The notes under the pieces are model-generated. The model made no database searches. It was not told the DNA's origin and was given only the letters and a program-made list of their open reading frames with translations. Shown here one piece after another: positions 22,653 to 38,255 of a stretch of DNA of 64,000 nucleotides. Position 1 is the first letter of the stretch. Each line of letters begins with the position of its first letter. The stretch spans positions 62,001 through 126,000 of the forward strand of contig NZ_JH947128.1 of the NCBI RefSeq assembly GCF_000302595.1, in the 5' to 3' direction. Both the position numbers and the translations under genes were made by a program. This stretch comes from Pedobacter arcticus A12. GTDB taxonomy: Bacteria > Bacteroidota > Bacteroidia > Sphingobacteriales > Sphingobacteriaceae.

Positions 22653-22699
22653 GTCGGTACAAATCCTAAATTTATGATCTAATATTAAGACCCATAAAA

Positions 22700-22723
22700 A
22701 AAGCCACCTTTCTAGGTGGCTTT
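22700..22723. terminator. Bidirectional terminator between the kinase gene and tRNA-Met
   Basis: AAAGCCACC (22700-22708) and GGTGGCTTT (22715-22723) form a perfect 9-bp stem with a six-base loop. A-runs upstream give a U-tract on the minus strand, so it terminates the tRNA transcript as well as the kinase mRNA. Confidence 0.85.
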
Positions 22724-22732
22724 CATTCCAAG

Positions 22733-22806
22733 TAGCGGGAAGGAGAGTTGAACTCCTGACCTCAGGGTTATGAATCCTGCGCTCTAACCAACTGAGCTAC
22801 CCCGCC
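22733..22806 (-). tRNA. tRNA-Met (anticodon CAT)
   Basis: On the minus strand a full cloverleaf is visible. The acceptor is GGCGGGG with TCCCGCT (two G-T pairs). The D-arm is GCTC..GAGC and the anticodon loop is TTCATAA with stem CAGGA/CCCTG (one A-C mismatch at the loop-proximal pair). The T-arm is AGGAG-TTCAACT-CTCCT and the discriminator is A. It is 74 bases and CCA is not encoded. The D-loop and G-C pattern suggest elongator Met, not initiator, although tilS-type CAT Ile cannot be excluded by eye. The 5' half of this gene (22768-22806) lies inside the left copy of the island's flanking repeat, so the working gene is a hybrid of chromosomal 3' half and island-supplied 5' half. Confidence 0.95.
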
Positions 22807-22952
22807 ATAATTTCAACTTTCTGTCTTATTCTTCTCAAATCTTATTCAGCAACGGTAAGCCTGTGCGCTGTTAATTAATTATCCAAGCCACATAAACGGC
22901 TTGAAATTTGAGTTGCAAATATAGAGGAAATTACTTTCCTTTAGAAAAGAAA
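22768..22952. repeat. Left 185-bp attachment repeat of the island (attL)
   Basis: This block is identical to 38019-38203 except for one base (G at 22926 versus A at 38177), at a constant offset of 15,251. It begins exactly at the anticodon loop of tRNA-Met and runs through the tRNA 5' half and 146 bp upstream of the tRNA. The boundary at the 7-base loop TTCATAA fits the crossover region of tyrosine integrases that use anticodon loops. Confidence 0.95.
22916..22923 (-). promoter_or_regulatory. -7 box upstream of tRNA-Met within the attachment repeat
   Basis: The minus strand reads TATATTTG, a perfect TAnnTTTG box, 110 bases upstream of the tRNA 5' end. No convincing TTG lies at the expected -33 distance. 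The only base that differs between the two repeats (22926) is 3 bases upstream of this box. The leader to the tRNA would be about 100 bases, long for a tRNA, so another start is possible. Confidence 0.5.
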
Positions 22953-23139: not shown

Positions 23140-23193
23140 TTGGCTCATCTGTTGGCGCATTTGATGACCTATTTGGCGCATCTGTTGGCGCAT
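23140..23193 (+). repeat. Cluster of four TTGGCKCAT nonamers, probable integrase arm-type sites (left)
   Basis: TTGGCTCAT at 23140-23148 and TTGGCGCAT at 23152-23160, 23173-23181 and 23185-23193. They form two pairs, each with a CTG spacer (12-base repeat), and the pairs are 33 bases apart, about three helical turns. The same nonamer recurs at the right end of the island at 37937, next to the integrase start. Arm-type integrase or excisionase binding is the simplest reading (inference). Confidence 0.65.
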
Positions 23194-30376: not shown

Positions 30377-33300
30377 ATGGCATTTGAATTAACAGATATC
30401 AAGGAGGCATATAAGAAACTGAAAACTTATATCTACTATGATAATACCGATATTATTTTAAGAAGAAAGTTGGTTGAGTTTGAAACAAATTTGACTAAAG
30501 ATTTCAATTCAATATTTAGGGCGAGTGAGAAACCTTATCGAACAGGGAATGAACTGGATATTTTTAAAAATGATTTTGGTATCCCTCAATCAGTTGAGAG
30601 TAAATTACAGATTTTCACCAATGAATTAAACAATTACAACCGTTCTAAAGATTTTTTTGATTTTTTTTTAAATAAAATTGACGCAAACCTTTATCCGAAA
30701 AAATATGAGAAAACCGAAAAAGCAGATAATTTAATTACTAACCAAAGAATTAAAAAAGAATATCCAATTGAAAGACTTACGGCATTTATAGATGCGCCAA
30801 TCGAAATACATTTAATTTCTGTTCTTTGGACCATTCATTATGGAGCAACAATGGACTCAAAACTTAGTAGTAATTGTATCGGAAATAGATTATTATTGAG
30901 CAAAGACAAAAAAAACATTGTCAATGGTTCAGGATTGTTCAAACCTTACTTCAAACAATATCAACAGTGGAGAGACGAGTCTGTCAATATTGCTCAAGAA
31001 TTAATAAAAAAGGAACGAGATGTCCTATTTCTCAATCTAGATATTAAAGATTACTTTCATTCTGTTCGAATACGAAATGAGGTAATTCATAGTGAAGATA
31101 AAACCCATTATATAACAGCTCATAATAATTTAAATAAGCTATTTTTAAAAACGCATCATATTTATACAGAAAAGATTTCAAAACAATATCAACAACCTTA
31201 TGACTTTTCTTCTGAATTAGAACGTAATGACAACAATGAACTCCTCGAATTTATATTACCTATTGGTCTGCTATCTTCATTCGTTCTTGCAAATGATTAT
31301 TTAAAAGACTTTGATAAAAGAATCGTTGAGAAATATAAACCGGCATATTACGGTAGATATGTAGATGATATTTTATTAGTCCTTGCCGACCCTAATCCTT
31401 ATTCAAGCGATGAAGAAGAGAATGAAGATTTTAAATTTTCATTTACTGAATACAAAAGCAGGATTAAAAAGAAATATAATAATGTTGAAAATGTTCATTA
31501 TAAAATCACTTTTGAAGAAGAAACTCTTAGTGAAATTGAGAAATATGTTATATCTAACTTTAGCCCTTTAATTAACCTTATTGACTCTCCTTTTACGAAA
31601 GATTCAAACGACCCTAAAGGACGAGTTTTTAAAATAAATGGTAAGAAATCATTATTCTGCCAAAGTGAAAAAACCCTTCTTTATTACTTTGATGCCGAGG
31701 AATCAGATATGGTAATAAATAAATTAAAAAGAGAGTTAGAAGAGAGAACTAGCGAATTTAGAGATTTACCAAGTCACGATAACTCTTTAGGGGAATTTGA
31801 AATGAGTGCGTATCATTTGGATTATAATGGAACAGAAGGAAAGATTAAAACTCTTCAAGATTATAAAGAGAATAGATATGGATTAACTTTATTTCTCTCT
31901 AATCAAATATTCAGTTCTTTAAACCATGAGCGTAATATTTCAGAAAAAGAAAAAAATCAAGTTCTTAAATTCTTTAAAGGCTCTACTTGTCTGGAGTTTT
32001 ATCGTTTATGGGAACGTATTTTTACTTATTTCTTGGTTAACAAAGAACCAAAATCGTACATCGATTTTTATATTCATTGTGCCGAGCAAATAGATAATAT
32101 TGGAAAAAAAGATATGAGATTTATTGAAGGCACAACAGTAGAGTATTCTATTGTTCAAAAATCAATGGCTGAATATTTAGATTGCGCACACGAACTAACT
32201 ATTTCATTAAATCCAATGTTCTTGAATCAAAGCAGAGATGTTGAATTACACTTTGATTTTAAAACTAAAGAATTATCTAATTCACTGTTAGTTTATTATA
32301 TGAACAATACAGAGGTTACAAAATCGAATTCAGGTTGGCAAAATAGATTCCGGGAGACAAATATGATTAGGCATCAATATGTTTCGACTCCATTATTAAA
32401 TTACACTAAAGAAGCTAAAAAAGGTTACAGCAACCTATTAAAACTCCAATTAGACGTTGAAATATTTGAATTAGATGATGAGTTAATAAAAAACTCGCCG
32501 AGACCAATAAAGTTCTGGGAATGTTGTTTTGCTTCAACTTTTTCAGAATTATCTAGATTTAATAAATCAAAATTAAAAGAAGAAAATGGGTATCACTTTA
32601 CAAATATTTTAGGACCTATAATTAAAACTGAAGAAGCCAATTTAATTACGAAGGAAACTACAAGAGAGGAATACTATTTAGATTACGCTTTTGATGTTTA
32701 TGTGAATGGTAATTCAAATCATTTACCCCACTATATTTTAAGCGATAAAAATTTAAAATCTAGCTTTTTTAACTTAGTAAATCGAGATAAAAATCTAGAT
32801 AACAAGAATCAGCTTAAGGAGTTTCGTATAAATTCGAAAGACAAAATTAAGGAGCCTAGTATTTCATTTGCCAATACAGAAGTAACAGAGGATAATATTG
32901 TTAAAGGTGTCAGAAATGAACCAAATTTGTCGATAGAAAGATACCAGCGTTTAGCTTTAATCTTAAATCAAGCCAGAAAAGAAAATTCGGATATAGTGTT
33001 ATTCCCTGAATTTTTCATCCCAATAAATCTACTTTCAAGCTTAGCACGCTATTCTCAAAAAAATCAAACTTTAGTAATTTCTGGATTAGAACATATTATT
33101 TCTAACAAAACTGCATTTAATTTTGTAGCCACTATTCTTCCTGTTGAGATAAACGGAATAAAGGACGCAACTGTCGTTTTTAGATTAAAAAATCATTACG
33201 CACCCGTTGAAGAATTTCTAATATCTCAAAACCATTTAACTGTTCCAAAACCAGCTATTAGTAGATATGATATTTTCAATTGGAAAAATATATATTTTTC

Positions 33301-33700
33301 TGTATTCTATTGTTTTGAGTTAGCCGATTTGGAGCATAGAAGCTTATTGAGAAGTAAAATAGACTTATTAATTGCTTTAGAGTGGAACAAAGACACTCCA
33401 TATTTTGCTAACATTATTGAGGCTAGTGCAAGAGACTTGCATTGTTATGTTGCACAAGTAAACACGAGTCAATTTGGAGATACTAGGCTAACTCAACCCA
33501 CGGAAACAGCAGTAAAAGATTTACTAAGATTAAAAGGTGGTACTAATGATGCCATTCTTGTTTCCAAATTAAATATCCAGAAACTTAGAGAGTTCCAGCG
33601 CAAAAAGTTTTTTGTCTCAAATAAAACCTTTAAACCACTTCCTCCGAATTTTTCAATTGATGAAATTCTAAAAAGAATTAAAAACGAAAATATTACTTAA
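30377..33700 (+). CDS. Reverse transcriptase-nitrilase fusion, DRT type 1 (UG1)-like antiphage protein
   Basis: The 1107-residue protein combines two enzymes. The N-terminal half is a reverse transcriptase: motif A LNLDIKDYFHSV (Asp222), LPIGLLSSFVLANDYL as the template-contact motif, and the polymerase box YGRYVDDILLV (Tyr328-Asp331). The C-terminal about 250 residues are a carbon-nitrogen hydrolase. Its triad is Glu878 (VLFPEFF), Lys938 (FRLKNHYAPVEE) and Cys979 (FYCFELADLE). Both active sites look intact. Family knowledge: RT-nitrilase fusions of unknown-group 1 are antiphage DRT type 1 proteins; some other unknown-group RTs also carry nitrilases, so class assignment needs a tree. The middle 400 residues are helical and unassigned. 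It starts a cassette with the next two genes (46- and 33-base gaps). Confidence 0.92.
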   Translation: MAFELTDIKEAYKKLKTYIYYDNTDIILRRKLVEFETNLTKDFNSIFRASEKPYRTGNELDIFKNDFGIPQSVESKLQIFTNELNNYNRSKDFFDFFLNKIDANLYPKKYEKTEKADNLITNQRIKKEYPIERLTAFIDAPIEIHLISVLWTIHYGATMDSKLSSNCIGNRLLLSKDKKNIVNGSGLFKPYFKQYQQWRDESVNIAQELIKKERDVLFLNLDIKDYFHSVRIRNEVIHSEDKTHYITAHNNLNKLFLKTHHIYTEKISKQYQQPYDFSSELERNDNNELLEFILPIGLLSSFVLANDYLKDFDKRIVEKYKPAYYGRYVDDILLVLADPNPYSSDEEENEDFKFSFTEYKSRIKKKYNNVENVHYKITFEEETLSEIEKYVISNFSPLINLIDSPFTKDSNDPKGRVFKINGKKSLFCQSEKTLLYYFDAEESDMVINKLKRELEERTSEFRDLPSHDNSLGEFEMSAYHLDYNGTEGKIKTLQDYKENRYGLTLFLSNQIFSSLNHERNISEKEKNQVLKFFKGSTCLEFYRLWERIFTYFLVNKEPKSYIDFYIHCAEQIDNIGKKDMRFIEGTTVEYSIVQKSMAEYLDCAHELTISLNPMFLNQSRDVELHFDFKTKELSNSLLVYYMNNTEVTKSNSGWQNRFRETNMIRHQYVSTPLLNYTKEAKKGYSNLLKLQLDVEIFELDDELIKNSPRPIKFWECCFASTFSELSRFNKSKLKEENGYHFTNILGPIIKTEEANLITKETTREEYYLDYAFDVYVNGNSNHLPHYILSDKNLKSSFFNLVNRDKNLDNKNQLKEFRINSKDKIKEPSISFANTEVTEDNIVKGVRNEPNLSIERYQRLALILNQARKENSDIVLFPEFFIPINLLSSLARYSQKNQTLVISGLEHIISNKTAFNFVATILPVEINGIKDATVVFRLKNHYAPVEEFLISQNHLTVPKPAISRYDIFNWKNIYFSVFYCFELADLEHRSLLRSKIDLLIALEWNKDTPYFANIIEASARDLHCYVAQVNTSQFGDTRLTQPTETAVKDLLRLKGGTNDAILVSKLNIQKLREFQRKKFFVSNKTFKPLPPNFSIDEILKRIKNENIT

Positions 33701-36851: not shown

Positions 36852-37937
36852 TTATAATTCGGGCAACGCATCTCTCAACTCTTCACTATTAACCTCTCCT
36901 AGCCCTCTTAAATACTTCATAGTGACTATAATGCTAGAGTGACCTAGAAGCTTTTGAAGGATATAAATATCTTTAATTTTTTTGTACACATTTACAGAAG
37001 CAGAATGTCTAAAAGAATATAAAGTCTGATTCTCTTTTATTAAAGATTTAGCTTTCATCTTATTTTTTGCCCTGCTCCACATGGTTTTAAAATAGTCATC
37101 ATTAATTAACCAATTTGTACCAGTAAATATATAGGAATTATCATTTTCACAGTTCTCTATAAAAGGGAGAAGAGCTTCATACACATAGTTCGGGATATCC
37201 ACTACCCTAATTTTCTTTCCCTTATTTTCATTACCGGATAAATAAATCTTGTGCTCTTTAATGTGCCTTTTCTGCAAGAGTCGGCTTTCCTCATGAGGCC
37301 TTAAGAAACAGCCATAAGCCAATAAAGATAAAAGATGAAGTTTGGGGTAATGCTTTTTTAAAAACGCTAACACCTCCTTCATTTCCTCTTTAGTGTAAAT
37401 CTCATGCAACTGTTCATTGCATTTTTTCCTTGGGGTTCTAGAGATAGTGTTTGGTAACAGAACATTTAGAGTTTGCCGTTTATTCATATAATTCCGGTTT
37501 GAGGAATTGAACTGCTCTAGAAATTCTATGACTCTGGAAGTCTCTAACTTGTCAACGGAGCATTTCTTTTCGGCAGAAGTAAGGAACTGTAAAAACTTGC
37601 CACTAAGAGCAACTAGGTCTTTCTTATAACTTCTGCTATAATTCTCATTGAGTTTGGATTTTAGGATTTCTTTGACACTATTCTCTAAGGAAAGAACAGC
37701 TTTCTTTTCAGCAGGCTTCTCAAACGATAAAGGATTCCAGCCTTTCTCTAAAGCTTTGTGAAATTCAAATTTTAATTTGCTAAGTAGTTTGTTTTTCTCT
37801 GACTGGCTTTTAGCCTTGTTAGGAAAGATACGCAATTCAAGTCTTTTGGCATTGTACTCTCTCTGTCGAATACCGTCAAAATAATACTCTACGTAGGCTC
37901 TTGATTCTGGGCTTTTAATTTCTAATTCAGTAAACAT
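36852..37937 (-). CDS. Tyrosine recombinase (integrase) of the island
   Basis: The catalytic set of a tyrosine integrase is present: Arg in LAYGCFLRPHEESRLLQ, the second Arg with His in LYSFRHSASVNV, His in KLLGHSSIIVTMKYLRGL, and the nucleophilic Tyr in MKYLRG. The N-terminal half has a SAM-like arm/core-binding domain (SYKKDLVALSGKFLQFLTSAEKK). The open frame runs up to a TTG at 37982. The ATG at 37937 is preferred and gives 361 residues. It lies 81 bases from the right attachment repeat. An orphan tRNA-Met promoter and 5' half read straight toward it, and a TTGGCGCAT element overlaps its start region, suggesting autoregulation. It should catalyse integration and excision at the tRNA anticodon loop. 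Confidence 0.93.
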   Translation of the reverse strand: MFTELEIKSPESRAYVEYYFDGIRQREYNAKRLELRIFPNKAKSQSEKNKLLSKLKFEFHKALEKGWNPLSFEKPAEKKAVLSLENSVKEILKSKLNENYSRSYKKDLVALSGKFLQFLTSAEKKCSVDKLETSRVIEFLEQFNSSNRNYMNKRQTLNVLLPNTISRTPRKKCNEQLHEIYTKEEMKEVLAFLKKHYPKLHLLSLLAYGCFLRPHEESRLLQKRHIKEHKIYLSGNENKGKKIRVVDIPNYVYEALLPFIENCENDNSYIFTGTNWLINDDYFKTMWSRAKNKMKAKSLIKENQTLYSFRHSASVNVYKKIKDIYILQKLLGHSSIIVTMKYLRGLGEVNSEELRDALPEL

Positions 37938-37957
37938 TGGCGCATTGGGTGGCGCAC
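37937..37957 (+). repeat. TTGGCGCAT and a diverged copy at the integrase start (right arm-type sites)
   Basis: TTGGCGCAT at 37937-37945 and the diverged GTGGCGCAC at 37949-37957, 12 bases apart as in the left-end pairs. It is in the same + orientation as the left cluster, 62-82 bases from the right crossover point. In the excised circle these would flank the core together with the 23140-23193 cluster. Confidence 0.6.
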
Positions 37958-38018
37958 AGTTTCTAACTGTACTAAAAATCAATGTTTACAATATTATCAA
38001 GGGGAAATGGCAGTGGGC

Positions 38019-38057
38019 TTATGAATCCTGCGCTCTAACCAACTGAGCTACCCCGCC
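38019..38057 (-). pseudogene. Orphan 5' half of tRNA-Met left by island integration
   Basis: The minus strand carries GGCGGGGTAGCTC... up to the anticodon loop TTCATAA and then diverges into GCCCACTGCC. It lacks the 3' half of the anticodon stem, the T-arm and the acceptor strand, so no tRNA can form. It is identical to the 5' half of the intact gene at 22768-22806. It now serves as a leader in front of the integrase gene. Confidence 0.95.
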
Positions 38058-38166
38058 ATAATTTCAACTTTCTGTCTTATTCTTCTCAAATCTTATTCAG
38101 CAACGGTAAGCCTGTGCGCTGTTAATTAATTATCCAAGCCACATAAACGGCTTGAAATTTGAGTTG

Positions 38167-38174
38167 CAAATATA
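38167..38174 (-). promoter_or_regulatory. tRNA-type -7 box now facing the integrase gene
   Basis: TATATTTG on the minus strand, the same box as at 22916-22923. Transcription from here would pass the tRNA 5' half and reach the integrase ATG after about 220 bases with no gene between. Confidence 0.5.
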
Positions 38175-38255
38175 GAAGAAATTACTTTCCTTTAGAAAAG
38201 AAATTTAAAAAAAATTAAAACTTGTTTTTCCCCTTGTTATTTAGTAAAATTATCC

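Follow-up and report, generated by a model that had tools for sequence, protein, structure and literature searches.

A Pedobacter island that carries the promoter of its target tRNA-Met gene in its attachment repeat, with possible consequences for integrase expression

Background

Transcription of integrase genes from host tRNA promoters is already known in principle. In integrated ICEKp1 the tRNA terminator is displaced and the host tRNA-Asn promoter drives int, whose output is lowered by stem-loops in the leader (PMC13023037). Similar evidence of a tRNA-promoter-driven int is available for ICEclc and ICEEc1; all three elements use a site at the 3'-end of the tRNA, leave the near tRNA whole, and switch in the excised circle to another promoter, that of the element (PMC13023037). 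In KplE1 the intS gene likewise lies behind a codirectional tRNA (argW); integrase sites cover its expression region, and its own promoter overlaps attL (PMC2951348). A further layout is that of the displaced-5'-fragment islands of Islander, where a tyrosine integrase uses an anticodon-loop site and an intact tRNA at one end faces a 5' fragment at the other (PMC4383910). The sections of the Islander account concerned with this type count it as a minority (159 of 3919 islands) and do not treat the promoter content of the repeat or its effect on int (PMC4383910).

The locus described here, a mobile element of about 15 kb in Pedobacter arcticus A12, is comparable to each of these. With ICEKp1, as well as ICEclc and ICEEc1, it shares a displaced tRNA terminator, an int gene placed behind a host tRNA promoter and a predicted structure in the int leader; unlike in ICEKp1, only a broken 5' half of the tRNA is present at the near end, and both copies of the repeat carry the tRNA promoter. 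With KplE1 it shares the codirectional tRNA before int, and it may also have integrase sites over the expression region, but no consensus promoter was found in the position of the intS promoter. Its tyrosine integrase, probable anticodon-loop site, and division of an intact tRNA and a 5' fragment between its two ends are those of the displaced-5'-fragment islands. What is different from the known cases is the 5'-half layout and a repeat that contains the promoter and would thereby do away with a switch.

Results and Discussion

Architecture of the island and its attachment repeat

The window, i.e. the whole 64-kb stretch of DNA that was analysed, contains a single intact tRNA, a tRNA-Met(CAU) detected by ARAGORN at 22732-22806 on the minus strand, on which the repeat copies, promoter boxes, integrase gene and control elements described below are also read. 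A direct repeat of 188 bp (22765-22952 and 38016-38203; 98.9% identity, spacing 15.25 kb, offset 15251) comprises the 5' half of this tRNA and 146 bp of upstream sequence that include the -7 box of its promoter. Its two mismatches fall at tRNA nt 40 (38018) and at a base just upstream of the -7 box (38177/22926). The 185-bp repeat starting at 38019 that had been reported in the preliminary description is right, the mismatch at 38018 being what separates it from the 188-bp span. The near copy consists of the host-derived tRNA 5' half, of which nt 1-39 are stranded at 38019-38057, with its native upstream region, and the DNA beyond it resembles the flank in an empty-site relative (L024). The far copy would enter the excised circle; if the crossover was in the anticodon loop, the intact tRNA combines a host 3' half with a 5' half (nt 1-39) supplied by the element. 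The native tRNA terminator, a hairpin followed by a T run (22692-22728), lies beside the far copy rather than near int.

This arrangement shows the Islander signature of an intact tRNA and a cognate fragment in the same orientation flanking an integrase-bearing interval within 2-200 kb. Across the genus the orthologous tRNA-Met keeps its neighbour gene, several genomes have an uninterrupted site, and the joined flanks of the island match as one piece in four same-genus relatives (G005, G004, G001 and G003). Scans of genome contigs, viral contigs and phage records recovered no close relatives. The ten ORFs scanned with Pfam contained no transfer domain, relaxase and transfer genes being the mark of an integrative and conjugative element. 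The cargo includes a 1107-aa reverse transcriptase (30377-33700) matching the defence family RT_UG5-nitrilase (DRT) with E 3e-243, and the ORF after it has a weak HATPase domain match.

The integrase gene (36852-37937) encodes an intact, full-length tyrosine integrase with a Phage_integrase match in Pfam (E 1e-15). An ORF with a TTG start reaches 37982, but homologues align from ATGTTTAC, and the likely start is therefore the ATG at 37937 (361 aa; stop 36852).

The tRNA-Met promoter and its path to int

Promoters and terminators were judged by a purpose-made scan, as the standard sigma-70 consensus is wrong for this phylum and a standard terminator rule missed obvious tRNA terminators. The TATATTTG box that had been pointed out on the minus strand is indeed present at 38167-38174, with its far copy at 22916-22923. 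It matches the published flavobacterial -7 element, TANNTTTG (PMC6847099, PMC9723704). The two strands of the window together hold 74 copies of this element, so that about 0.03 would be expected by chance in 60 bp of one strand, but it lies within 60 bp upstream of 8 of the 32 tRNA loci of the same genome, with several more at 69-71 bp; at these tRNA loci it is usually followed by CA(A/T/C)(T/C)CC. It also lies upstream of the orthologous tRNA-Met at 14 of 15 same-genus loci (the exception being L030), at a distance from the tRNA that is most often about 33 bp. No clear -33 TTTG precedes the TATATTTG box. Judged from its conservation across the genus, the enrichment of the element at tRNA loci and the fit to the flavobacterial consensus, the box is the true tRNA-Met promoter. 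Its +1 is expected near 38160-38165, and from the position of the published flavobacterial element (PMC6847099) would be near 38162. A leader of 109 nt separates the box from the tRNA; an interpretation of this leader as a worn tRNA stub was rejected, as the similarity was not significant (p ~0.45).

Neither a terminator between the TATATTTG box and int nor any TANNTTTG between the tRNA stub and int was found in the scans of these intervals. The earlier statement that only the broken tRNA lies before int is nearly right, but has to be extended by the 109-nt leader and by about 80 bp of element DNA between stub and ATG, which carry regulatory features. As in ICEKp1, a tRNA promoter thus lies codirectionally upstream of int with its terminator displaced. 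The different promoter that ICEKp1 uses when excised has no counterpart here: since the repeat encloses the entire promoter, the circle would retain it, and int would face one and the same box whether integrated or excised. A terminator is absent between stub and int throughout the codirectional 5'-half class of the integrase family, and is present in L140 and L141, which are the closest relatives and in which the tRNA before int is intact. A broken tRNA-Met 5' half separates the intact tRNA-Met from the one TANNTTTG detected upstream of it in five relatives (L024, L025, L027, L031 and L032), which suggests that transcription can pass through stubs of this kind. Two of them have broken tRNA-Met 5' halves in tandem (L027 at 1840-2820, L025 ahead of the tRNA at 961-1035), which are joined to CCGCCAGYTGGCGGACGGCAG palindromes and are perhaps a small tRNA-derived repeat family; those of L027 adjoin small ORFs that by eye resemble GIY-YIG nucleases.

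Candidate control elements at the int start codon

A doublet of TGCGCCA with 12-bp spacing (37938-37956) abuts the int ATG, and a motif scan recovered three copies of TGCGCCAA at the far end of the island (starting at 23152, 23173 and 23185; 23152-23192). Doublets are present in 38 of 57 members of the integrase family against 2.7 expected, and the simplest reading is that both sets of repeats are likely arm-type integrase sites. Such a candidate site next to the ATG, recurring at the far end, would be comparable to the integrase sites over the int expression region in KplE1. Further, in a long transcript the segment GTAAACATTG (37980-37989) is predicted to pair with CAATGTTTAC (37930-37939), which includes the start codon. 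This hairpin had z-scores of -2.75 and -4.3 in two computations; the whole 261-nt leader is not unusually stable (z -0.82), and the predicted hairpin still forms in it. Similarly strong start-region folds are seen in L105 and L140, but most of the family lack them (median z -0.9). In F. johnsoniae, structure in the start region tunes translation (PMC6847099). The doublet and the hairpin, both overlooked in the preliminary description, probably hold int output below the strength of the tRNA promoter.

Distribution of layouts in the integrase family

Homologues of the integrase were recovered in 65 of 400 same-family genomes, and 70 family members were analysed. A recognisable tRNA piece lies near int on the opposite strand in 45 and on the same strand in 12. 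Where the near-end halves are clean, 5'-half cases end at nt 39-51 and 3'-half cases start at nt 28-32, and the shared core of the family is accordingly placed in the anticodon loop. The crossover in the window is inferred from these relatives to lie in the same loop; the mismatch at 38177 did not help to place it, as this base varies among relatives. On the tree the codirectional layout with a broken 5' half needs at least three changes: the window, L047/L052/L070, and L129. Of the codirectional cases 11 of 12 have TANNTTTG in the 330 bp upstream of int, as against 1 of 44 opposite cases, a contrast that largely follows from orientation and is not independent proof. Conversely, 43 of the 44 opposite-orientation homologues (L006, L019 and 42 others) are without it in that range. 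One of them, L019 (G000:C3:603565-604704), is another member of the integrase family encoded in the genome of P. arcticus A12 itself, and adjoins the 3' half (nt 32-74) of a tRNA-Phe on the opposite strand.

The tRNA is rebuilt from its 5' side in the window and in seven other elements (G292, G175, G141, G391, G340, G199 and G205). A repeat that covers the promoter is present in the window, G292 (165 bp), G175 and G141, and ends 29, 58, 17 and 25 bp upstream of the -7 box, respectively. G292, G175 and G141 are members of a single integrase clade from another genus, so promoter capture is represented by two lineages, not four. The repeat of G391 shares only tRNA nt 1-41, and that of a group at tRNA-Arg (G340, G199 and G205) includes only a few upstream bases; since these repeats reach barely or not at all beyond the tRNA, the upstream region that the far tRNA gains from the elements is a different one. 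In G340 and G199 that region contains TATATTTG.

A model for int expression and its alternatives

We propose that the island with its tyrosine integrase entered the anticodon loop of tRNA-Met, the far end restoring the tRNA by supplying a 5' half together with its promoter and the tRNA terminator staying with that copy. At the near end the native host promoter would point through the broken 5' half into int, and transcription from about 38162 would give a stub-int RNA. In the excised circle the far copy would yield essentially the same RNA, so that there would be no promoter switch. The output of int might be kept low in two ways, by integrase bound to the likely arm-type doublet that abuts the ATG, and by pairing of the AUG in the hairpin of the long transcript. 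We assign a probability of about 0.6 to this reading, i.e. anticodon-loop insertion, int read from the tRNA promoter in both states, and control at the start codon. The preliminary proposal that int lies downstream of a tRNA promoter in both states is borne out in its layout, promoter identity, lack of a terminator, repeat extent and recurrence in an independent lineage, whereas its transcription from there is what we infer from these features and the suggested tie to growth is a conjecture.

Some observations weigh against transcription from the tRNA promoter. The missing -33 TTTG is one; another is that long transcripts might be shut off completely by the hairpin and the integrase sites, in which case a shorter internal RNA would be the productive one. 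Moreover, the opposite-orientation members have no consensus promoter near int, and the family, including the element in the window, may use another kind of promoter. It is conceivable, if on balance unlikely, that int has its own promoter between stub and ATG, e.g. near TAATATTG (37989-37996), and that the hairpin silences read-through from the tRNA promoter, as in self-protecting insertion sequences. Such a role would suit the hairpin, in which the AUG is paired only when the RNA includes 37980-37989, the doublet at the start would fit an autoregulation of the KplE1 type (PMC2951348), and the opposite-orientation relatives must use some non-tRNA promoter. However, TAATATTG is one off the consensus, TANNTTTG itself is absent from the stub-ATG interval, and most family members lack a strong hairpin.

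Two other explanations seem far less probable. Repeat identity alone cannot place the crossover, and the repeat ends shortly upstream of the -7 box in four elements, as would be seen if recombination took place at its upstream end; the island would then have inserted upstream of the tRNA promoter, and the copy beside int would be a stray promoter and 5' half. The G391 repeat and the 3'-half cases starting at nt 28-32 instead indicate an anticodon-loop common core, making this reading very improbable. Hardly better is the chance that the layout is without regulatory meaning, with the promoter in the repeat only for restoration of the tRNA and int effectively silent in a decayed island: rebuilding a needed tRNA from its 5' side requires a promoter in any case, but the integrase ORF is undamaged and the likely arm sites are in place at either end.

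Conclusions

With respect to the family as a whole, we tentatively consider, at somewhat less than even odds, that there is a recurrent class of Bacteroidota islands that captures a whole tRNA promoter in the attachment repeat, so as to have the same int transcription when inserted and when excised, with control via integrase binding and a start-codon hairpin. An element that rebuilds a tRNA from its 5' side must carry a promoter, and this carriage would put the integrase under a housekeeping promoter without a switch of the ICEKp1 type. The family, in which one kind of integrase occurs with several tRNA/int layouts, also offers a clean comparative set for how tRNA promoters shape excision.
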